IMG/VR virus record: IMGVR_UViG_3300024514_000008
Span: 1-47,541 of that record
Source of the DNA: a virus
Direction: 5' to 3' (one strand)
Length of the DNA: 47,541 nt
Below the pieces are notes generated by a model, which saw only the letters and a list, made by a program, of their open reading frames with translations, was not told where the DNA came from and did no database searches. A program made the position numbers and the translations under genes. Every line of letters starts with the position of its first letter. Position 1 is the stretch's first letter. Shown in pieces: positions 3,101-26,587 of this stretch.

Positions 3101-6100
3101 TATCAAATCCCTTTTTATATTTATCCTGAAATACTTTTAGGTTGGCATCTAAAGCAGTGCCCATTTCCTTAAGTCCAGCCTCATCAAACTTAAGAGATTT
3201 AACATCAATCTTTATATCAGTTTGACCAGACTCTTCACGTAGAGCATCGATAATTGTTTGAACTTGTTCTTTTGCAAATCCCCTAGACTGTAAATCTATA
3301 GCAAGAGACTGAAATGCAAGTTTTGCTTCTTCATTGCTTGCAGTTCTAAATGATTCAATTTGAGTTTTAAACTCTTTTTGGAATCCTTCATCCTGTCTTA
3401 ATCTATCACGCTCAGATCTAGTTTGTGCTCCTACAACTTCACGATTACGTAAATCTGCACGAGATTCAAAGGCAGACCTTCCAGCAACTACTCCAAAGAA
3501 ATCTCCAAGAGTTTTTGCCTGTTCTGCAGTAACACGCATAGCCTCAGAAAGACCATATGTTGCTAATCTTTCCTTTTCTTTTTCAGCATTAAGTTTCTTT
3601 ACAATAGCATATAAACCAGTAACTACTGTAATTCCTATACCTATTGGACCTAAGAATCTTGCAATAATACCGCCAAATCTTAATAGGTTAGGAATAATTT
3701 TTTTAAGTCCACCAGCAAATAATCCTGGAACCATACTAAACTTCTTTGTACTAATATTTTGAACAAGAAGACCTGCTGTTGCTGCTCTAGTAGCAGCCAA
3801 TTCTAATATTTTTTGCTGTGTTAGTAGTTGGGTTACAGACATTAATGCAAATAGTAGACCAGAGTATTTAAATACTGCTTGAGATAATTCTCCAAGTTTA
3901 CCGCCAGCCATTGATCCAGCACCTGCAAGACTTGTTAGAGCAAATGTTCCAGTCATAAGAACTCTATTCATTGAGTCCATACGCTGTTGCATTGTTTTAC
4001 GTGCTGCTATTTCCCCTTCAATTGCCTTCTTTGTTTCTTGATTAATAGCAGAACCTTGCGTTACGTTAGATATTGGGGCACTTGGTGTAACTGGTACACG
4101 AAGTGGTTTGCCTCCTGGACCCAAGAGACCAGTGTCTCTCATTTGTGTAACTGCACCCTGTGTAACTGCTCCTGCAGCCATTGCAACATCGTCAGCCTGA
4201 TTCATCATTCCAACAGAAAGACCACGAGCAATATCTTCTCCAATTGGAATAGTTCTCTTAGATGGAGATTGTGTTTGTGCAGCCTGCGCTGTTGCCATTA
4301 CTGTTTGATTTACAATATCTTGCGCTGCTGCTGTAACTGGAGCAAATGACTGCTGACCTCTAAATCTTGCCTGTGTAAGCGTTTGTCTAGCAGTTTGTCT
4401 TTGCTGTTCTGTTCTATATCCAACACCAGCCTGTTGTGCAGGATTTTGCATTAAATAATCTGTAGCAGCAATGGCTCCCTTTGCCTGTGGAATAAATGAT
4501 GTAGATAGTTTTGCCATTGAGTCTGTTGATGAAAGCATACGCTCAAGGACTTGTTTTTGAACCATTAATTCTTGTTCAGTTAAAGCGATATTATTAGTAA
4601 TTTTTTCTCTAATAGATTTAACAATTGTTTCATCAGCATTTATCTCTTCAAGATTTTTTAAATATTCATTGCGAGTAGATGTTGAAGAATCTAGAATATT
4701 GCTTACTTGATTTAAAGTTGATGATTGTGCAATCCAAGCATTTGGATCCCATGCTTCATCAAACATTTTATCAATATTATCTTGCATTTCAATAACATGT
4801 GCTCTATGAACTTCTCCAGACTGAGCAATAGCATTTAAAACATTTTGTGTTTTCTTATCTGTTTTTGTTAAATCTATACCAAGTTCTGTATAGTATTCAC
4901 GAATTGCTTCTTGTGCTACACGGCTAGATTCTTTTGCTCTAACTAATTCTTCTTCTAGAGCAGCATTTCCTGCTACTTGCTGCTCCATTGTGCCAACATT
5001 AGTTTGTCCAGCACTAAACTTTCTTTCTCCTCTGCCAGCAGCAAGAAATACTTCTTTTGGAATAACAGATCCAGTTAATTCTTTTGTAACAAGGTCTAGT
5101 TCTCTGGTAAATGATCCAATACTAATCTTAGTATCATTTGCCATTCTTGATAAAGTTTCTTGAACAATTTCTAATGCATTTTCAATACCCATACCCTCTG
5201 CAAGCATTGCATCAATAAGTTTTTGTGCTTTAGCAGCAGTATCTCGTCTAGCAAAGTCTAATCCTGTTGAACTTCCACCAACACTAACAGTACCTGCCAT
5301 AAATCCTGGAATATTTCCAGCAATCATTCCTTGAATTAGTGGTGCATATTGTTTTGCTCTATCTTTTGGAATAATTGCTTCTCCAGGAGTAAGCATTGCG
5401 GGAACTGTATCCCTATTGCCACTTCCAGGAACTACTGTTATACCATTATTATATTTCCTTGGTGGTATCATCATTCCAGGATTTTGCATTGCAAACTGTG
5501 CCCCAGCATTTGCAGCAGCACGATAAGCCTGGATTAATTGATTAATTGCTCCAACTTCAGCGGTAAATGTTTGTGTTAGTCTTGCGTGTGACTGATCAAG
5601 GGAGTGTGAAGCAGCAGCAGCGTTAACCTGCTCCATTGTCAAATAATCTGTTTGTTCTCCAAGTATTTGTGTTTGACCAGTTAATCTTAAATATCCATTA
5701 CGAAGAATCATTGCACCCTTGACAATGTTTGCAAGTCCGTTTGCAAGCAAACCAAATGTCATAAGTGCAACTGGACCAATAGCACCAATAGCAACTGTTA
5801 GTACTACAATTGCTTTCTTTACTCCAGATGAAAGGTTGTTAAACTTCTCTAATATGCCACCAATAAATTCTACAATTGGTGTGACTGCTTCTAAAAATGT
5901 TTGACCAACTGGAATCAAAGACATTTTTAAGTCTTCTACAGACTTACGGAATTTATTCATAGCAGAGTCAGCAGTCATTCCTAATTCTGACTCAGATAGT
6001 GCAGCAAGATCTTCAATTGATGTACCTGCTAAATCAAGTACACGAGCAGCCTGACCAGTCTGATTTGTAACATTATCAAACAAAGTAGATAGACGAGCAA

Positions 6101-8584: not shown

Positions 8585-9220
8585 TTATGATGCTGGGGTC
8601 CAAGTACGATCTACGATCTTACCGTATGACGCTGAAGCATCTTCAGGAAGAAGACGGAAGGAAACTTCGAACATCGAAGGTTCATCACGCTTTGCGGATA
8701 CTGTTACATTCTCAATTGAGAGTGCACGATATGCTGCGTAAACACGCTCTACATATGCAGAGTCAGCGCAGTCTCCAGTTCCAGGTCCAACAGCAACAAT
8801 TCCACGCTCAACTGGACATTCTCCAATGTCACCTGCTGAGAGGTTAAGAGTTTGTCCTGCTGAAGTGGACTTTGTTCCTGATAGATCATCAGAATTGTAA
8901 GCAAGAGCCAAGAGAAGGTTCTCAAGGGTAGCCTCAGCAAAAGCAGTTGCAAGATTTACTTGCATACCCTGCTTGTACAACTTAGCAACGTCAAGAATCT
9001 GGTCAACCTGTACTTCACCGAAGTCTGGTTGGAACTGCAATTCAAGACCGTTCATGGTATAACCTACGTTTGTAAAATCTACATCATCAGCAAGGGTTTC
9101 CTTGTATGATTCAGATGATACGAATGCAGGCAATGTACCTGCTGTCAATGTTGTATCAGCAACAAAGAGAGCGGCTGCACCAACGATAATGTTGGTCGAT
9201 GTACCACGAGTATATGCCAT
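8585..9220 (-). CDS. Major tail (tube) protein
   Basis: This 211-aa protein is the likely tail tube subunit. The evidence is its place between the tail terminator candidate and the chaperones, its small size, its Ala/Thr/Val-rich beta-type composition without membrane segments, and its isolation as a transcription unit with a promoter element upstream (9283-9291) and a terminator downstream, as expected for an abundant virion protein. The start MAYTRGTSTNIIVGAAALF has GAGGTG upstream. Two Cys residues near 135 and 150 (ECPVERG and DCADSAY) could pair. The fold is inferred from context, not from a motif I can name. Confidence 0.85.
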   Translation of the reverse strand: MAYTRGTSTNIIVGAAALFVADTTLTAGTLPAFVSSESYKETLADDVDFTNVGYTMNGLELQFQPDFGEVQVDQILDVAKLYKQGMQVNLATAFAEATLENLLLALAYNSDDLSGTKSTSAGQTLNLSAGDIGECPVERGIVAVGPGTGDCADSAYVERVYAAYRALSIENVTVSAKRDEPSMFEVSFRLLPEDASASYGKIVDRTWTPAS

Positions 9221-10965: not shown

Positions 10966-11957
10966 TATAAAACTCCTGGAGTGCCAAAGTTTGTTATGTA
11001 TTTCTGTAGAATTTTATCTACTAATATATTTCCAGTGCCTTCTAACGCAGACTTATCAATTTGAATTTTATATTGATCAGTAGAGTAGTTAGTAATATAC
11101 CTCTTATGGTATTCCATCTTACCGCACTTGATATCTTCAATTAACATTTTTGTAGCATCTTGAATTTCATATGGAACAACCTTATAGCCAGTTTCTAAAT
11201 GAAATAGATAATTAAATGTTACTGGAAATGTTACTCCAGGTGCGACTGCTAAAGTTACTGTGCTATCTTCTGTATCATAAAGATAGATTGAGTCTGATTC
11301 TCCAAGTGGAACTCCTTTTGGTGTTCCTATTTGACGAATATATGATTGATCGCCCATCTGGGTCCACTCTTTAAGAATGGATGTTTTATCTTTGCTAAGT
11401 AGATAAATCCATTGGCTATCGTTTTGTGTTTGTGGGGTAGCATCATAATCCCAAACAAGTTGATTATTTTCGTATGCTTTTAAAATTGTGTATGTTCTGT
11501 CCCAAATAGGCATGTAATCTGATCCATTACCATTTGTTTCATACCAAGAGCGCTCATAATAAAATCCGCCAGGTACTATAGAGTCAATAATTGCTCTTGC
11601 TATATTTTCCCACTCTGTATAGTTTGCAATATCTGTTGCTGTTCCATCTGCATTGGTCTGAGCCAATCTAATTGGATTAACATATGGTCTAGCAATATCT
11701 AGATTGTCTTCTACTACAATTTCTGCCTGTTCCCCATCAACAATAGAATAAATTGCTAAATAGTATGACTCATCATACGAGTTAAACATATTAGAAAGAG
11801 TATAACTAATTTGAGCATTGGCATCTGATGTTATATTTTCTTCTACTTCATTAACATTTCTTGTACCCTGATTAATAATTAATAGATACTCTGTATTAGC
11901 ATCTGGCACATCATATGTGATGGTCAGTGGGTATGGGGGTAAACGTAGAATCTGCAT
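10965..11957 (-). CDS. Head-tail connector/adaptor with N-terminal Ig-like region
   Basis: This 330-aa protein is longer than a usual gp6-type adaptor (100-200 aa). Residues 1-90 look like a beta-sandwich (LPPYPLTITYDVPDANTEYL and following strands), and residues about 100-330 carry an adaptor-like helical end with TKMLIEDIKCGKMEYHKRYI and VDKILQKYITNFGTPGVL. It lies between the 118-aa post-capsid gene and the stopper candidate. Inferred role: ring below the portal, with an extra exposed domain. It overlaps both neighbours by one base (TAATG). Confidence 0.55.
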   Translation of the reverse strand: MQILRLPPYPLTITYDVPDANTEYLLIINQGTRNVNEVEENITSDANAQISYTLSNMFNSYDESYYLAIYSIVDGEQAEIVVEDNLDIARPYVNPIRLAQTNADGTATDIANYTEWENIARAIIDSIVPGGFYYERSWYETNGNGSDYMPIWDRTYTILKAYENNQLVWDYDATPQTQNDSQWIYLLSKDKTSILKEWTQMGDQSYIRQIGTPKGVPLGESDSIYLYDTEDSTVTLAVAPGVTFPVTFNYLFHLETGYKVVPYEIQDATKMLIEDIKCGKMEYHKRYITNYSTDQYKIQIDKSALEGTGNILVDKILQKYITNFGTPGVL

Positions 11958-12313
11958 TAGATCTTACCGTAGTGTTTGGCTACCTCTGCTGGAGTTGCTT
12001 CACGAACAGATTTCTTGGTAAGCCACTTTACGGATGCCTCCTTTGTGACAATATTATATCCTTTTTCAAGGCTACCCACACCGTTCCAATAAATGTTTCC
12101 TTTTGAGAAAAGTGCTACCTTTTCTTTTGGAGTCATTGCTGCTGCTTTTCTTTCTTCTTCATCTTGTCTAGGAACAAAAGGAAGAATTGCCTCTAACAAT
12201 TCCTGCTTTGTAGTTGCTCCAAGAGTATCAATTTTGTTCTTTTTTGCATATGACTTTAATTCAAGAACAGTTTTCTTTGAAAATTCTTCTACTACTTCTT
12301 TTGTTGTTGCCAT
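11957..12313 (-). CDS. Post-capsid protein with SAP/Rho-N-like helix pair
   Basis: This 118-aa protein has an N-terminal segment, VLELKSYAKKNKIDTLGATT, that resembles the helix-extended-helix of SAP/Rho-N nucleic-acid-binding domains. The C-terminal half, WNGVGSLEKGYNIVTKEAS followed by a KSVREATPAEVAKHYG tail, resembles small proteins found after the capsid gene in actinophages. The function is unknown; it may sit at the head-tail interface. GGAGG precedes the ATG, and an upstream TGATATAAT lies at 12329-12337. Confidence 0.7.
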   Translation of the reverse strand: MATTKEVVEEFSKKTVLELKSYAKKNKIDTLGATTKQELLEAILPFVPRQDEEERKAAAMTPKEKVALFSKGNIYWNGVGSLEKGYNIVTKEASVKWLTKKSVREATPAEVAKHYGKI

Positions 12314-12343: not shown

Positions 12344-12568
12344 CTATTTTCTACTTGCTCTTAATGTTTGTGGTTTTCTTATTCCTGCTGGAGTACCAGA
12401 TATTGTTATATTTTCACCAAATATAGGTGTTGGAATATTACCTAATACATTTGTTTGCATAATCATACCTTGTGGACCCATTACCATTACCCCACCAACT
12501 CCACCTACTGCAATTGCTCCATCGCCATCGTGTTGATGTGAGACTGTTGGATTTCCTGGATATGACAT
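12344..12568 (-). CDS. Stand-alone copy of the capsid protein N-terminal arm
   Basis: This 74-aa protein aligns over most of its length with the N-terminus of the major capsid protein upstream. Shared elements in the same order are YPGxPTVSHxHxGDGAxA, a GG pair, LGNIxTP and TPxGI. It lacks everything that follows, including the HK97 core. It has its own Shine-Dalgarno (AAGGAAA) and lies 71 bp after the capsid stop, past the hairpin at 12588-12618. It may be a decoration or assembly peptide that occupies the same capsid surface as the arm, or a duplication remnant; the intact frame and RBS favour a working gene. Confidence 0.8.
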   Translation of the reverse strand: MSYPGNPTVSHQHDGDGAIAVGGVGGVMVMGPQGMIMQTNVLGNIPTPIFGENITISGTPAGIRKPQTLRASRK

Positions 12569-12587
12569 TTTATTTCCTTAAGTGATA

Positions 12588-12618
12588 AGGGAGGACAGAT
12601 TTTTTGTCTGCCCTCCCT
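12588..12618 (-). terminator. Hairpin after the major capsid gene
   Basis: Arms AGGGAGGACAGA (12588-12599) and TCTGCCCTCCCT (12607-12618) pair over 12 bp with one mismatch around a 7-nt loop. It lies 22 nt beyond the capsid stop. On the minus strand the 3' side is TATCACTTAAGG, with no U-run, so it may stabilise the capsid mRNA 3' end or attenuate rather than fully terminate. Confidence 0.7.
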
Positions 12619-12639
12619 ATCGGTTAGTTTTTTAAACTA

Positions 12640-13779
12640 TTATGCGGTTGGATCAACTGCTGCATCTGCGTAAGCAACTGCATCAAGTTCTTCCCATTGA
12701 ATACCAAAGCGTACAAAGACGGTATACTCAATTGTATCCTTCTTTGGCTTGTATTCACGGTTTACAGTGATATCACGCTGGAAACCCCATACACGGTTTG
12801 CAGGGAATGTCAAGTCGACATAATCTGCTGGGTAGTAAGGAACTTCCATAACATCCACTCCGAGAACACGAGTTGTACGTGCTCCACCGAATGTCTGTCC
12901 CATACCATCAAGATAGTCTTGACGGTTACGCTCTGTACCACCAGTACGTGGAGCAAATGCTTCAGCAATAGCGTCAGCGAGTGTTCCGTTGTTCTTAACA
13001 ATACCTGCGAATGCATCAGTACCTGCGTAGAACTTTAGGTTCTGCTTTAGGGCACGATACTTACGTGGCATTGCAAGGATAATGTCCTGCATTACCTCTG
13101 TAGTCCAGTTGTCATCTGTAACTGTAACGGCTGCTTCGTGAGCATCTCCGTCATTTTCAACTTTGTGAACGAAACCTTCCATGATTGAAAGGAAGTCGCC
13201 AGTTGAACCATCACCGTTGATAGCGAGGTCTTCGATATCGTTAGCGAATGCGTTTGTCATCAAGCGAACTAGATGATCTTCAAGCGCACCACCTTCAATA
13301 TTGTCTTCAAGTGCTTCAGTTGAAACTTCCCAATCAAGACGAATCTTCTTGGTTGTGAGTTCTACCTTAGTAAATGTAGCACCAGCGTTTGTATAATTGT
13401 TGTTTGCCTGTGCAGCAGCACGAATTACACGTTCACCCACGTTAACTTTTTCAAGTTCCATGGTGTTTGCTCGCATAGTAACTCTACGACCATCTTTGGC
13501 GAGAACTGTTGCATCCCACACATAGTCGATGAAGCGGCGAGCCTGCTCTGGAAGGAGAATACCTCCTGGTGTACCAGTTGGATTAACTGCGTTTGGACCA
13601 GAAGTTACACCCCATTCAGGAGTAGCAATGTTACCCAAGTTTGCACCAATATCAGATGTGGATGGGTTGGTTGCTGTTGCACCACCGATATCACCTGAAG
13701 CGAAAGCACCATCACCTTGGTGGTTGTGCGATACTGTTGGAGAACCTGGATAGTTCTTTACGATTTCTTGTTCCGACAT
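12640..13779 (-). CDS. Major capsid protein (HK97 fold)
   Basis: This is the main shell protein, 379 aa from the ATG at 13779. That start has AGGAGG eight bases upstream, whereas an in-frame GTG at 13788 overlaps the Shine-Dalgarno. Residues 1-75 form a Gly/Pro/His-containing arm. The remainder has HK97-type features: RANTMELEKVNVGERVIRAA in the E-loop region, the long helix with DHLVRLMTNAFANDIEDLAI and GDGST, the P-domain segment, and a C-terminal A-domain strand FVRFGIQWEELDAVAYADA. It follows the protease-scaffold gene by 27 bp, the standard order. The N-terminal arm is duplicated as a separate gene downstream. Confidence 0.93.
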   Translation of the reverse strand: MSEQEIVKNYPGSPTVSHNHQGDGAFASGDIGGATATNPSTSDIGANLGNIATPEWGVTSGPNAVNPTGTPGGILLPEQARRFIDYVWDATVLAKDGRRVTMRANTMELEKVNVGERVIRAAAQANNNYTNAGATFTKVELTTKKIRLDWEVSTEALEDNIEGGALEDHLVRLMTNAFANDIEDLAINGDGSTGDFLSIMEGFVHKVENDGDAHEAAVTVTDDNWTTEVMQDIILAMPRKYRALKQNLKFYAGTDAFAGIVKNNGTLADAIAEAFAPRTGGTERNRQDYLDGMGQTFGGARTTRVLGVDVMEVPYYPADYVDLTFPANRVWGFQRDITVNREYKPKKDTIEYTVFVRFGIQWEELDAVAYADAAVDPTA

Positions 13780-13806
13780 ATTGTTCACCTCCTAAGTGAA
13801 TATACC

Positions 13807-15129
13807 TTAACTAAATAGGTCGGCATTTGTGAGGAAACGACCGCCCCATAGGGATTTTTGAACCTGACGTACAGGTTCCTGCACGATCTCGCCTAGATCG
13901 CCAGACTTGCGGAAAGCAGTATCTTTTTCTACAAGATCTACTCGCTTTCCAAACTCATTAAAAGTGCTCTTTACTTGGCTTACCTCACTTGCTACAGACT
14001 TTACTTCGCCTGTAACTGTTTCAAGAGACTTTGTAATTGCTTCAACATTGGCTTGCATAGCCTTTACTGTATCAGCAAGATTGCTCAAGGCATTAGTTAG
14101 AGAGTTATTAATTTCTTCCACAGACTTTGCAACTTCTGCTGTTGCATTAACAACTGCTTCTACTGCATCATCTGCTTCTTCAGCAACAGGAGCGTCTGCA
14201 ACAACTGCATCTGCTTCTGCCACTGCCTCTGCTACTGGCTCTTCCGCTGCTGCTTCTTCAGCAACAACTTCAGTAGCCTCTGCTACAGCATTATCTGCTG
14301 GAGCCTCGGGAGCAACCTCAACATTTTCAACTTTTGTTGCATCTGCGACAACTAGTGTCTCTTCTGCAATAACAGTTTCTTCTGTCATAGGATTTTCCTC
14401 CTTTGTAATCTTAATTGTCCTAATGCCTTTTGCACTATCAACTAAGAACTTTACGGTATCAATATCATTCTGATCTTCAACAAAGCCAATGTTTTTCATT
14501 GACCCGCTGCATGTTGGACATGATTCATCAGATTCTTTAGAGAGTCTTACAATATCATCAGTGTTGCACCAATAAACTGTATCAACTACAGTCTTTGCAA
14601 GGAATCCACCAATTTGTCCCTTTTCAATAGAAACAACATTAGCAAATTGATTTGCAGGATTATCTACAAGAGATAATTCATGCAATTCATATTCCTTAAC
14701 AATTCTTATTGCCTTTTCTAGTTCTTCATCGTAAGAGTCCATTGACTTTGTAATATTCCCTCCGATAGAAAAACCAGTTAGTGTGCCATCAAGAACTTTT
14801 TCCCAAGTATCTTGTGCACCCTTTGAAACATATGCAGAAACATAAACACCGCTATAAAAGTTTTTTGACTTTGGATCAAAATAACGATCTTCCTTAAATG
14901 AAACTACTTTGCCTACTGCTGTAGGTTGATGCATTTCACGTAAGTTACCACGGAATTTCTTAAATGCTTCAAGGCTGGCTTCTGTTGTAACAATGTCGTT
15001 TTGCTTATCAATATTATCTAGTGTCGCAAAGCCAGAAACAATTCTGCGTTCTTTGTCGACTTTTCCGATAGGCATCGAAAAGCGAACATTGTCGCCATCA
15101 GTAGTCCAGTGTGCTTTATTTATAGTCAT
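13807..15129 (-). CDS. Prohead protease fused to a scaffold-like domain (XkdF type)
   Basis: This 440-aa protein combines two functions that cut the scaffold and shape the prohead. Residues 1-175 resemble XkdF-type phage proteases: SGFATLDNIDKQNDIVTTEA, LREMHQ (candidate His), GTLTGFSIGGN and ELSLVDNPAN. Residues 185-220 hold a small Cys cluster (C-N-T-D, then CPTC). Residues 245-345 are an extreme Ala/Glu/Val repeat, followed by a coiled coil and a basic end, typical of scaffolding proteins. The internal methionine beginning MTEETVIAEE (near 14389) has GGAGG upstream, so a separate scaffold may also be made by internal initiation. TATAAT lies 9 nt before the ATG without a Shine-Dalgarno, so a leaderless mRNA is likely. 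Confidence 0.85.
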   Translation of the reverse strand: MTINKAHWTTDGDNVRFSMPIGKVDKERRIVSGFATLDNIDKQNDIVTTEASLEAFKKFRGNLREMHQPTAVGKVVSFKEDRYFDPKSKNFYSGVYVSAYVSKGAQDTWEKVLDGTLTGFSIGGNITKSMDSYDEELEKAIRIVKEYELHELSLVDNPANQFANVVSIEKGQIGGFLAKTVVDTVYWCNTDDIVRLSKESDESCPTCSGSMKNIGFVEDQNDIDTVKFLVDSAKGIRTIKITKEENPMTEETVIAEETLVVADATKVENVEVAPEAPADNAVAEATEVVAEEAAAEEPVAEAVAEADAVVADAPVAEEADDAVEAVVNATAEVAKSVEEINNSLTNALSNLADTVKAMQANVEAITKSLETVTGEVKSVASEVSQVKSTFNEFGKRVDLVEKDTAFRKSGDLGEIVQEPVRQVQKSLWGGRFLTNADLFS

Positions 15130-20860: not shown

Positions 20861-22891
20861 TTAGGATATTTTTATTTCGCAGTAATCAGTAGTACAGTAT
20901 GCCTCTCCAAGAGCCTCTAGATTATCTACCCCATCATAAATGGCAGACCAGTTAATCTTCTTAATTTGACCAATATAAGACTCATACTCTTCTTTAGTTA
21001 TTTGAGTATATGGCTGCTGTGGGTATACAGTATTTCCCATTGGCAAAAATGATACTGCCTTTAACTGACCTTCATACATATGTAATGCTGGAGCAACATG
21101 CTTAGACTCTGTTTCTTTATCAAATGATAAGGTTACAGATACTCCATTATCTGACCAGTATTTTTGAGCAGTTGCTGCAAGAGCAATTTTTTCAAATAAT
21201 GTAACATCTTTCTCAGAACGTGGGTGACCAGAATGGACTGGGAAATAAACTACTTGTGTATTTGCTGATACTAGATCTTTTTCAATCTTATATCCTGCTG
21301 CCTTAAACAAGTGAAGCATTGGATCTGTTTCTCCAAAACGAATAGCACGAAGGAAATAATCCCCTCCTGGTGCCCAGTGAACTCCTGGAGTTGCTCCAGA
21401 TAAAATAGATACAGATCCAGATGGCTTTACTGTAGTTACACGAATTGATTCACGAACACATAGCCATTCTGAATACTGATGATCATAGTGACGAATCTTT
21501 TGATATCCCTCATCCATCCATTCACGTACTGCAGGCAAACCCTTCTTGTCTGCAAATGAAGCAATGCCAGTTAATGAGGTTCCGATACGACGATTTCGTT
21601 GCATAATGCCATTTGTTTGTTGCCAATGTGTAGGAATTAATGTAACTGTTTTTCCATAAAGATAAGCAAACTTTAAAGTACGCAAGAAATCTTCTTTGCT
21701 TTCATGTCGATTTAAATGAACTTCAACAAGTGTGCAAAGTTCATACGACTCTAATGGCTGTTCTGCACATGGGTTAAATCCCATAACACGATAGTCCTTG
21801 CCATCTGGAGAGTCTTTTAGTCTTCCATAATTACGAGCAACATCTAGCCAAATAAATCCTGGCTCTCCGTTATTTACAATAAGATCAACATATTCGTCAT
21901 AATTAGTTCCAACTGTTGCTGAAATAGAATTATTACTCATCCATGCCCAACCTGGATTTTCTGAATCATATGAATTTCTATCAGGAAATACTTCTGCATT
22001 TTTTAAATTAATAAAATCTTGATCTCCTGCTGCACCTAACGCAAGTGTTGCAGAACGACGAACATTTCCAGAAACAACACATGTTCCAATAAGATTTACA
22101 ATATCAACAATTGCACGGCTATCTAAGGTTTCTCCAGCCCTACCGCCAATAACTTTACGAATGCGTGTATGGAGGTCAATTAGTGGCTGAGGACCGCTTG
22201 CAACGCCACCGAAGCCTTTAATCGGTGCTCCTAGAGGACGGATAAGGGTATAGTCAAATTCTTGAATATTTTGATTAGGGCGTAAAAATGAATTAAGCAA
22301 TAGACGAACTGATTCTACCCATCCCTCACGAGTATCTGGGATTTCATATGTAACTACTGGCTCTGTAGGTGCATAAATAATAAAATCTTTTTCAGCACCA
22401 ACTGTATCAAAGCCTACACCAATTCCAAGCATAAGGGCATCCATTACCCATGCAAATAATGCACCTGGATCATTTTTATCTAGATCTTTTGTTGATACCA
22501 TTGCACAGTTTTGAAGAGCAGCAGAGTTGCGCTTTTCCATTGTCATGGGTGTACCAAAAGCCCACATACCACGTCCTGGTGGAGTCCACTTTAGATTAAA
22601 CATACGATCATATGCTTCTTGTGCAGATTTTTGAGCCTTATTGTCATTCCAAGGTAGGCGATTTTCTTTTGCCCAGTTCTTTTGAACTGAGTACATACCC
22701 TCAATTACACGCTTACAAACCTCATGCCAGCGTTCTTTTGTACCGTCTTCCTTTACCCTTGAGTATGTTCTGATAAAGGTGATTTCTCCTAAAGAGTTTC
22801 CTCCAGCGTCTGCAAAACCAAAAGGAGGCTCAACATCCTTATATTTTGCAATAAAATCATCTAATAAACGGAAAGAAAAGATATCTGACAT
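20861..22891 (-). CDS. nrdJ: Class II (adenosylcobalamin-dependent) ribonucleotide reductase
   Basis: This enzyme reduces ribonucleotides to deoxyribonucleotides using coenzyme B12, supplying DNA precursors without oxygen dependence or a second subunit. At 676 aa it resembles the monomeric Lactobacillus-type enzyme (about 740 aa). Visible catalytic residues are Cys129 in NCAMVST, the finger-loop set CAEQPLESYELC (Cys375, Glu377, Cys386, with the same spacing as Cys408, Glu410, Cys419 of the leichmannii enzyme), and a C-terminal CxxxxC pair (Cys666, Cys671). The ATG at 22891 is preferred, with GAGAGG 13 nt upstream; an in-frame GTG at 22912 overlaps that motif. It has its own promoter, a palindrome and a leader hairpin, and sits among virion genes. 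Confidence 0.95.
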   Translation of the reverse strand: MSDIFSFRLLDDFIAKYKDVEPPFGFADAGGNSLGEITFIRTYSRVKEDGTKERWHEVCKRVIEGMYSVQKNWAKENRLPWNDNKAQKSAQEAYDRMFNLKWTPPGRGMWAFGTPMTMEKRNSAALQNCAMVSTKDLDKNDPGALFAWVMDALMLGIGVGFDTVGAEKDFIIYAPTEPVVTYEIPDTREGWVESVRLLLNSFLRPNQNIQEFDYTLIRPLGAPIKGFGGVASGPQPLIDLHTRIRKVIGGRAGETLDSRAIVDIVNLIGTCVVSGNVRRSATLALGAAGDQDFINLKNAEVFPDRNSYDSENPGWAWMSNNSISATVGTNYDEYVDLIVNNGEPGFIWLDVARNYGRLKDSPDGKDYRVMGFNPCAEQPLESYELCTLVEVHLNRHESKEDFLRTLKFAYLYGKTVTLIPTHWQQTNGIMQRNRRIGTSLTGIASFADKKGLPAVREWMDEGYQKIRHYDHQYSEWLCVRESIRVTTVKPSGSVSILSGATPGVHWAPGGDYFLRAIRFGETDPMLHLFKAAGYKIEKDLVSANTQVVYFPVHSGHPRSEKDVTLFEKIALAATAQKYWSDNGVSVTLSFDKETESKHVAPALHMYEGQLKAVSFLPMGNTVYPQQPYTQITKEEYESYIGQIKKINWSAIYDGVDNLEALGEAYCTTDYCEIKIS

Positions 22892-22911
22892 TGTATTTTG
22901 TAAACCTCTCA

Positions 22912-22950
22912 CTAAAAAAAATTAAAGTACTTTGTTAAATTCAAAGTACT
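22912..22950 (-). promoter_or_regulatory. Leader hairpin with U-run before the reductase gene
   Basis: On the minus strand AGTACTTTG and CAAAGTACT (22950-22926) form a perfect 9-bp stem with a 7-nt loop, followed by TTTAATTTTTTTT. It begins close after the predicted transcription start and ends just before the Shine-Dalgarno. The shape is that of an intrinsic terminator, so it could act as an attenuator; being a symmetric repeat it could also be an operator. Confidence 0.65.
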
Positions 22951-24280: not shown

Positions 24281-26587
24281 TTACGCTTCGATAAGCGTCT
24301 TGTGTACCTTTACTGATGTACCATTTGTTGATGTGACTAGCAGACGAACATCTCCGCCTGAATAATCTGCATCTGTTGTACCAAGTTGTGTATTGCTCTG
24401 AATATCTGCATATTCTGTTAGATAGACATTGTTATTTCCATCTACAGTTACAAGAACCTCAAGAACTTCAACGTCATTTCCATTTGTCATTTGAACAATA
24501 TACTTTGCTGAACCAAATGATGCTGCTGACCATGAATCAACTACAGTTGCGCTTGTGCCAGAAATGCTTGTTGTAGCAGTTCCAATAAATGCATCTGCAA
24601 GAGTAATATATCCAAGTGTTGCACTAGCAAATGTTGGGCTAGATGTTGTAGCAATGCTCTGTGGTAGAGACAATGTTACTGAACCAGTTGAAGCAGTTGC
24701 TGAAATTTGATCAGCAGTTCCTGCAATGCTTGTTACGCCTACGTTTGTAATTGTTAGTACATTTGAAGTTGATGCATATGAAGCACTAATTCCTGTACCA
24801 CCAGTTACTGCATTACCAAAGTTATCTACAGCAGTTTCAATATCTGATGTAAATGCAACGGTACCTGTAGCATCTTTAAATGTAATTGTATTATCCTGTG
24901 TAGGATCTGTAAATGTTAATGTGGTTTCGTGTGTATCGTTTGTACCCTCAATAACAATGTTATTGTCTGAGAGATATAGTCCTGATACTGTTGGATTTGT
25001 CAAACTTGGACTTGTTAGAGTCTTATTTGTAAGAGTTTGAGTAGAGTTTAGATCTACAGTAATTGCTGTGTCAATTGCAAATGTATTTCCAGTTAGTGTT
25101 ATACCGTTGCCAGCCAAGTATGTTCCAGCACCAGAGAACTGCTCAAATACAATTGGGCTAGTTCCTACTGTAGTTACTACTTCTGTTTGTACCCATCCAG
25201 TATTGTTATAAAGTGTTCCTTCAGATACGAATGTAAAATCACCTGGAACAATTTCTGTTGGTGTATTAAAGTCTGCTGCACGAACTGCTGCTCCAGAAGA
25301 CTGTACTACATAAATACCATTTTGAGAAGTCGTTGACTGTGATTTAACAAGAACACGATCACCAGCGACTAGCGTTACGCCATCTACTACATCTCCTGCT
25401 TCAAGAGCATTTGATAAATCAACATTACTTGTTGTTGCAACACGGCAAGCAGCATGAACATTTAAACCCTGTGCAACAGCATCAACATATTGCTTTGTTG
25501 CTGCTTCAAGAGCATTTACTGGATCTGCATTAAGTGTTACAGTTCCTGGGAATGTTACTGCATTTGGAAGAGAAAGAGTTACTGCTCCAGTAGATGCTGA
25601 TGCAGCAATTTGGTTTGCTGTTCCAGAGATGCTTGATACTCCGCCAGAGGCGTTGAATGATAGTGAGTTTGCAGTATCATCGTAGGTAATTGTAATATTT
25701 GTTTGAGTACCATTTGCAATTGCCTGTGCTACTGCATCCTGTGCTCGTTCATCAGTAAACCACTTATTTGTTGGTGATGCATCTTCAGAAATATCATCTG
25801 TTACGAGTGTACGAGTTCCACCAAGTGAAGTCGCTGTACCATTAATTGTAATTGATGAATTCTCAAGAGAACCATTTGCAATGTTTGTAATTGTATTTGA
25901 TGTACCAGAAATTGTCTTATTTGTTAGTGTCTGTGTACCAGTTTCTGTTACGTACCCTGTCAAAGATGGGATATCAGAAGTAAGAGCAATTGTTCCTGTT
26001 GCTGCAGGTAGTGTTAAAACACCTGATGCTGTATTTGCTGCAACAATTTGTGTAGTTCCTGTTGTTGCACCATTAACATTAAGACCATTTGCAACATATA
26101 GAGAAGTAATTGTAGGGCTGCTGCTAAGAACAACATTTGATCCAGATCCTACATAAGAGTTTACAGTATTTCCATTAATCTGAAGTGTATTTCCAGTTGA
26201 TGCTGTATTAAAAGTTTTATTTGTAAATGTATCTGTTGTATCCTTACCAACAAGAGTTGTTGTTGCATTTGGAAGTGTTACTGTAACATCTTGTGTTGGT
26301 TCTGGTGAAAGAAGTGTTAATTCATATGCGTCAGGGGTTAAGCCTTCAAAAATAATTCTATCTGAAAATGTAGGTGTTGTAGATACTGCAGCATCAATTA
26401 CACCTGTTGAGTCGTTATAAGTAAATGTAATACCTGTATAGGTACCATTTGTAAACATTGCTCCAGTTGTGTCTTGGAGAAACTCTGTGCTGGCTTCTGT
26501 CAAAACATTAGAGCCATTGACTGTAGCAGATGATCCTTCTACTACAAGCCCATTTTTAATACGAAAGGCTTTGTCGACTGTAGCCAT
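24281..26587 (-). CDS. Long tail fibre protein with repeated shaft
   Basis: This 768-aa protein is poor in charge and rich in Thr, Ser, Gly and Asn. Repeats of the type LTNKTLTSPSLTNPT, GTANQIAASASTGAVTLSLP and GTADQISATASTGSVTLSLP (positions about 318 and 638) indicate a trimeric beta-helix shaft. Residues 1-20 match the next gene's N-terminus (attachment domain). Residues about 360-480 contain a globular insert with YVDAVAQGLNVHAACRVATT. The last 85 residues, from AKYIVQMTNGNDVEVLEVLV, match the C-terminal domain of the 145-aa neighbour (26604-27041), so both probably carry the same tip domain. Host recognition is the inferred role. Confidence 0.88.
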   Translation of the reverse strand: MATVDKAFRIKNGLVVEGSSATVNGSNVLTEASTEFLQDTTGAMFTNGTYTGITFTYNDSTGVIDAAVSTTPTFSDRIIFEGLTPDAYELTLLSPEPTQDVTVTLPNATTTLVGKDTTDTFTNKTFNTASTGNTLQINGNTVNSYVGSGSNVVLSSSPTITSLYVANGLNVNGATTGTTQIVAANTASGVLTLPAATGTIALTSDIPSLTGYVTETGTQTLTNKTISGTSNTITNIANGSLENSSITINGTATSLGGTRTLVTDDISEDASPTNKWFTDERAQDAVAQAIANGTQTNITITYDDTANSLSFNASGGVSSISGTANQIAASASTGAVTLSLPNAVTFPGTVTLNADPVNALEAATKQYVDAVAQGLNVHAACRVATTSNVDLSNALEAGDVVDGVTLVAGDRVLVKSQSTTSQNGIYVVQSSGAAVRAADFNTPTEIVPGDFTFVSEGTLYNNTGWVQTEVVTTVGTSPIVFEQFSGAGTYLAGNGITLTGNTFAIDTAITVDLNSTQTLTNKTLTSPSLTNPTVSGLYLSDNNIVIEGTNDTHETTLTFTDPTQDNTITFKDATGTVAFTSDIETAVDNFGNAVTGGTGISASYASTSNVLTITNVGVTSIAGTADQISATASTGSVTLSLPQSIATTSSPTFASATLGYITLADAFIGTATTSISGTSATVVDSWSAASFGSAKYIVQMTNGNDVEVLEVLVTVDGNNNVYLTEYADIQSNTQLGTTDADYSGGDVRLLVTSTNGTSVKVHKTLIEA

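Follow-up and report, generated by a model that had tools for sequence, protein, structure and literature searches.

A short gene encoding a protein of 74 amino acids was found directly behind the gene for the major capsid protein (MCP) in a 47.5-kb viral fragment from IMG/VR, herein referred to as the window. The short protein is homologous to the N-terminal arm of the MCP, and the tips of the two sequences are matched in nearly all related phages having both of them. The short protein is proposed, with a probability of about 0.5, to be a capsid accessory protein of the decoration or cement type, which would use the contacts of the MCP arm and in which a basic C-terminal tail would replace the HK97 fold.

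Gene locus and homology of the short protein

The window encodes, in this order, a portal protein, an S78 prohead protease, the MCP, the short protein, and a SAP/Rho_N-like protein, with a tape measure protein of 2415 amino acids further on. All features from the protease gene to the SAP/Rho_N-like gene are located on the minus strand. Profile matches identified both the protease (13807..15129, phrog_9427), which has a C-terminal scaffold-like coil, and the SAP/Rho_N-like protein (11957..12313, 118 aa), encoded by the next gene after the short gene. The MCP belongs to the HK97 family (12640..13779, 379 aa from the ATG; PF05065, E = 1e-6; phrog_1623, E = 4e-72). Its true start is the ATG at 13779 (MSEQEIVKN...), the same as in the original prediction, 7 nt behind the Shine-Dalgarno sequence AGGAGGT (13787..13793). 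The GTG at 13788, given as the start in the list of open reading frames, sits within the Shine-Dalgarno sequence AGGAGGTG.

The short gene (12344..12568; protein sequence MSYPGNPTVSHQHDGDGA...RASRK) starts with an ATG and is separated from the intact MCP gene by a gap of 71 nt. As originally claimed, it has its own Shine-Dalgarno sequence, TAAGGA (12575..12580), 6 nt before the ATG. The interval between the MCP stop and the short gene also contains a strong RNA hairpin (12584..12621; MFE -25.5 kcal/mol, z -6.3) with a GATAGGGAGGGCAGAC/GTCTGTCCTCCCTTATC-like stem and without a T tract. Hairpins of similar stability (median MFE about -26 kcal/mol in 70 nt) were found behind the MCP stop in relatives both with and without the short gene; the element may serve to stabilise or process the MCP mRNA.

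Elsewhere in the window, genes were found for an Ig-domain protein (8585-9220, phrog_2175), a ribonucleotide reductase (20861-22912, phrog_367), and a protein of 768 amino acids with head-decoration and tail-fibre matches (24281-26587; phrog_2647, phrog_11518). Among isolates, the closest are Streptomyces phages from the Stanwilliamsviridae, with MCPs about 42% identical in an alignment that begins only at residue 75. One relative was found in an Actinomycetota MAG, and the host of the window phage is therefore probably an actinobacterium.

In a BLASTP comparison, the short protein and the MCP were identical at 33 of 74 positions (45%, 56.6 bits, E = 1e-15). Residues 2-70 of the short protein were aligned with residues 9-81 of the MCP counted from the ATG (12-84 counted from the upstream GTG), and this part of the arm is encoded at 13537..13755. 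Both proteins have the motifs YPGxPTVSHxHxGDGA, LGNIxTP, and GTPxGIxxP (noted as TPxGI in the original prediction), and the order of the motifs is the same in both, as originally stated. A search of the whole record found exactly two places with this match, the short gene and the MCP arm, and no other protein of the window has the arm motifs. The short gene was also said to lack the HK97 fold; indeed, Pfam and PHROG show the HK97 domain in the MCP only, from residue 73-75 on, and the short protein has no match in either collection, whether to PF05065 or to a head PHROG. Since no long DNA repeat is common to the arm stretch and the short gene, the duplication appears to be old and conserved as protein.

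In total, related uncultured phages, mostly from freshwater, yielded 94 distinct intact homologues of the short gene, located immediately behind the MCP gene. The start is conserved in these relatives and is preceded by Shine-Dalgarno matches of 4-7 nt. In the window's clade, the short gene had a median dN/dS of 0.22, as against medians of 0.15 in the arm and 0.07 in the core of the MCP, with no pair above 1. Taken together, the sequences indicate that the short gene is a real gene. A pattern of frameshifts in relatives, set beforehand as evidence against such a gene, was looked for and was absent among the 94 homologues. A frameshift product of the MCP is ruled out by the own start and Shine-Dalgarno sequence of the short gene, a separate copy behind an MCP gene that is itself intact. 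A non-functional remnant of an mcp duplication would fit the patchy presence of the gene, for which parsimony on the MCP-core tree gave about 14 changes; for the family as a whole, however, this reading is refuted by the intact homologues, the purifying selection, and the conserved start and Shine-Dalgarno sequence. A remnant or a frameshifted MCP piece is thus highly improbable.

Distribution and origin of the arm and the short gene

All intact MCPs in the clade of the window have the arm. It comprises about 60 residues, somewhat fewer in some lineages, and is located between the leader MSEQEIVKN and GGILLPEQARRF. In the outgroup MCPs, which come from the Streptomyces Stanwilliamsviridae (Wakanda) and about 80 viral contigs, the N-terminus is merely short at this place, and thus the arm is most simply explained as an addition to the MCP of the window's clade. 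No stand-alone copy was found in the about 80 armless contigs or in Wakanda. Among 50,697 records of isolated phages, neither the arm nor the short protein was found.

The short gene adjoins the MCP downstream in every locus with both. It is absent at 46-47 of the 103 representative MCPs; in these cases, the SAP gene is usually located directly behind the MCP. One phage without the short gene (L069) has an MCP 98% identical to that of the window. The patchy presence and this near-identical MCP indicate that the short gene is accessory and non-essential. Long contigs (56-106 kb) contain either the arm together with the short gene or the arm alone, and no third copy of the arm was found in nine such contigs.

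Two loci have unusual arrangements. The first, L130 (IMGVR_UViG_3300012286_000260, 3494-6007), was counted as lacking the short gene by automatic scoring, but the gene is actually present behind a rearranged second MCP piece. In this locus, the MCP is followed by about 14 first codons of a short gene, which run out of frame, at a microhomology of sequence ggtgcaa near position 4730, into the second half of an MCP arm with a second MCP core; an intact short gene comes thereafter. This arrangement is either a recombination between the short gene and the arm or a library chimera. In the second locus, L055 (666-1856), the MCP lacks its last ~30 residues, the short gene lacks its first ~27, and the intervening stretch is gone, by either deletion or assembly error.

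In a joint tree of the arms and the short proteins, which is unrooted and based on few alignment columns, the short proteins form one side of a branch (SH-aLRT 96, or 99 without the N-terminal motif). Since all short proteins are grouped in a single clade that excludes the arms, they probably stem from one ancient partial duplication of mcp. Derivation from the capsid arm, as originally proposed for the short protein, is well supported by the homology, the adjacency, the single short clade, and the occurrence only beside armed MCPs. The opposite direction, in which the MCP would have acquired its arm from an independent gene, is less likely: the about 80 armless relatives have no stand-alone copy, and the homology extends into GI(L)LPxQ (GIxLPxQ), where the conserved capsid domain starts. 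This extent of homology and the nested distribution favour the direction from mcp to the short gene. In a weak test, the capsid motif of the armless MCPs scored weakly above shuffles in the tails of the short proteins.

Matched tips of the arm and the short protein

The tip class is equal in 88 of 90 arm/short pairs, including 81 HxH/HxH and 7 LNxxG/LNxxG pairs. The remaining two are the truncated contig L055 and L276, which has an FNGGG short tip beside an LNGEG arm, a near-match. Tips of mixed class were not found among the complete pairs. The motif identity between the arm and the short protein is 62% in the same genome, 57% for other genomes of the same class, and 30% for the other class. 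A partial Mantel test of the arm against the short protein, given the MCP-core distance, yielded r = 0.58 (0 of 2000 permutations); this test is known to be liberal, and so shared phylogeny could partly explain the matched tips.

Recent gene conversion is unsupported as a cause of the shared motif. Codon identity at the same residues is about equal within and between genomes (50% vs. 46% for HxH, 36% vs. 35% for LN, and 52.6% vs. 53.9% for clade A). A single clade of LN arms and LN short proteins was not rejected (p-AU 0.28). On the assumption of a single old clade of short proteins, the arm and its copy would have changed tip class in parallel, a pattern pointing to direct contact between them or to a partner common to both. 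The match of copy and arm in every genome with both intact suggests that the two act together in the virus shell.

A difference was also observed in the arm itself. Among the 103 representative loci, Q before the last G of the arm tip motif was found in 21 of 46 arms without the short gene and in 0 of 57 arms with it; a link of this residue to the absence of the gene is not established, with only 5 independent supported pairs.

Possible role and comparison with known systems

At least two K/R residues were found among the last 8 residues in 98% of the short proteins, and the first 50 residues have a median of 0. The MCP arms have a median net charge of -4. The AlphaFold model of the short protein (mean pLDDT 59) has, at low confidence, four strands at residues 18-44; the MCP model (34) was a failed prediction. 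As to a helical or coiled-coil delta-domain or scaffold peptide, the arm contains 20% glycine and the low-confidence model of the short protein contains no helix. Foldseek and PDB sequence searches with the short protein were empty, and no match was found in known families, the PDB, or fold libraries; with a model of such low confidence, no match to the known decoration folds (beta-tulip, OB, Ig) was obtained either.

In the proposed scenario, the 5' part of mcp, which encodes the arm and the beginning of the capsid N-arm (GTPxGIxxPxQ), would have been duplicated into the space downstream of mcp in an ancestral phage with an armed MCP. Through loss of the HK97 domain and acquisition of a short, basic tail at the C-terminus, this copy would have evolved into a non-essential accessory protein of the capsid. 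Judging from the sequences, the short protein would be present in the virion, fold like the MCP arm, and dock at the arm docking sites on the shell, beside or instead of the MCP arms at local symmetry axes. Its tail would anchor it to the acidic arms or the shell, which it may stabilise. Since the short protein would dock where arms dock, its N-terminal tip would have to fit those of the arms: HxHxG(D/E)G with HxH, and LNxxG with LNxxG. The position in the head module, directly downstream of the MCP, is that expected for a decoration or cement protein. Accessory proteins are often found at local three-fold axes (PMC10635136), the N-arms of T4 are ordered on the outer surface once expanded (PMC9958956), and the N-terminal arm of a decoration protein becomes ordered upon capsid binding (PMC7602432). 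More tentatively, the shell arm may be supplied both in cis and in trans, the detached copy co-assembling with the shell arms, perhaps in mixed trimers with HxH metal sites, and the tips co-evolving by matched motif switching.

Matched tips and adjacency would also be expected for an assembly-control peptide. As a free arm mimic, it would occupy arm sites of the MCP, portal, or scaffold while the prohead is assembled, but would be absent or rare in mature virions. The Shine-Dalgarno sequence, weaker than that of the MCP, and the hairpin between the genes would fit the lower output of such a peptide; still, phages with near-identical MCPs (L069) manage without the gene and the protease gene already has a scaffold-like coil, which makes this role rather unlikely. 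A role in surface adhesion or display is unlikely as well. In that case, the arm and its copy would be exposed glycine-rich tips binding host or particle surfaces and diversifying together under a shared ligand. Both evolve much faster than the MCP core, motif classes switch in both, and HxH motifs have been interpreted as metal-binding sites of phage tail fibres (PMC11705849), but dN/dS is well below 1 and the searches revealed no resemblance to fibre or adhesin families or folds. The confinement of K/R to the C-terminal tail in nearly all homologues would also suit an internal head protein, with the tail binding packaged DNA and the arm-like part tying the protein to the inner capsid wall. 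This is distinctly unlikely for a tail of only ~3-4 basic residues on a protein otherwise nearly uncharged and glycine-rich.

If the short protein is indeed a capsid accessory protein, partial duplication of the shell gene itself would be a possible route to such proteins. The contact rule between the arm and the accessory protein is directly testable with the ~90 natural arm/short pairs, the near-identical MCPs that differ in the presence of the gene, and the two motif classes.

The Streptomyces phages Wakanda, BillNye, and Circinus (Stanwilliamsviridae) are similar to the window phage in the MCP core (~42-44% identity) and in the gene order protease - MCP - SAP-like gene, but their MCPs are armless, with 27-45 residues before the capsid domain, and the short gene is missing. 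Already known are unrelated decoration or stabilisation proteins (PMC7602432, PMC10635136) and full-length MCP paralogues such as the T4 vertex protein gp24, which originated by duplication of the MCP gene (PMC9958956). For a detached copy of the MCP arm, a limited search of the literature found no account, which does not prove absence. The short gene is, like that of gp24, a paralogue of the capsid gene, but gp24 is a full HK97-fold subunit and the short gene corresponds to the arm only. With lambda gpD, T4 Soc/Hoc, P74-26 gp87, and Patience gp4, the short protein, as a putative decoration protein, can be compared only in its way of working: all are small, accessory, and encoded in the head module. 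No fold similarity to the short protein was found for any of these proteins and, to our knowledge, none of them is a copy of a part of its own MCP. In nested scaffolds of the lambda Nu3 type, an internal start in the same gene yields a small separate protein that corresponds to one domain of a larger head protein. The short gene is similar in providing such a domain as a protein of its own, but it contains no scaffold coil and is a separate, diverged copy of the N-terminal part.
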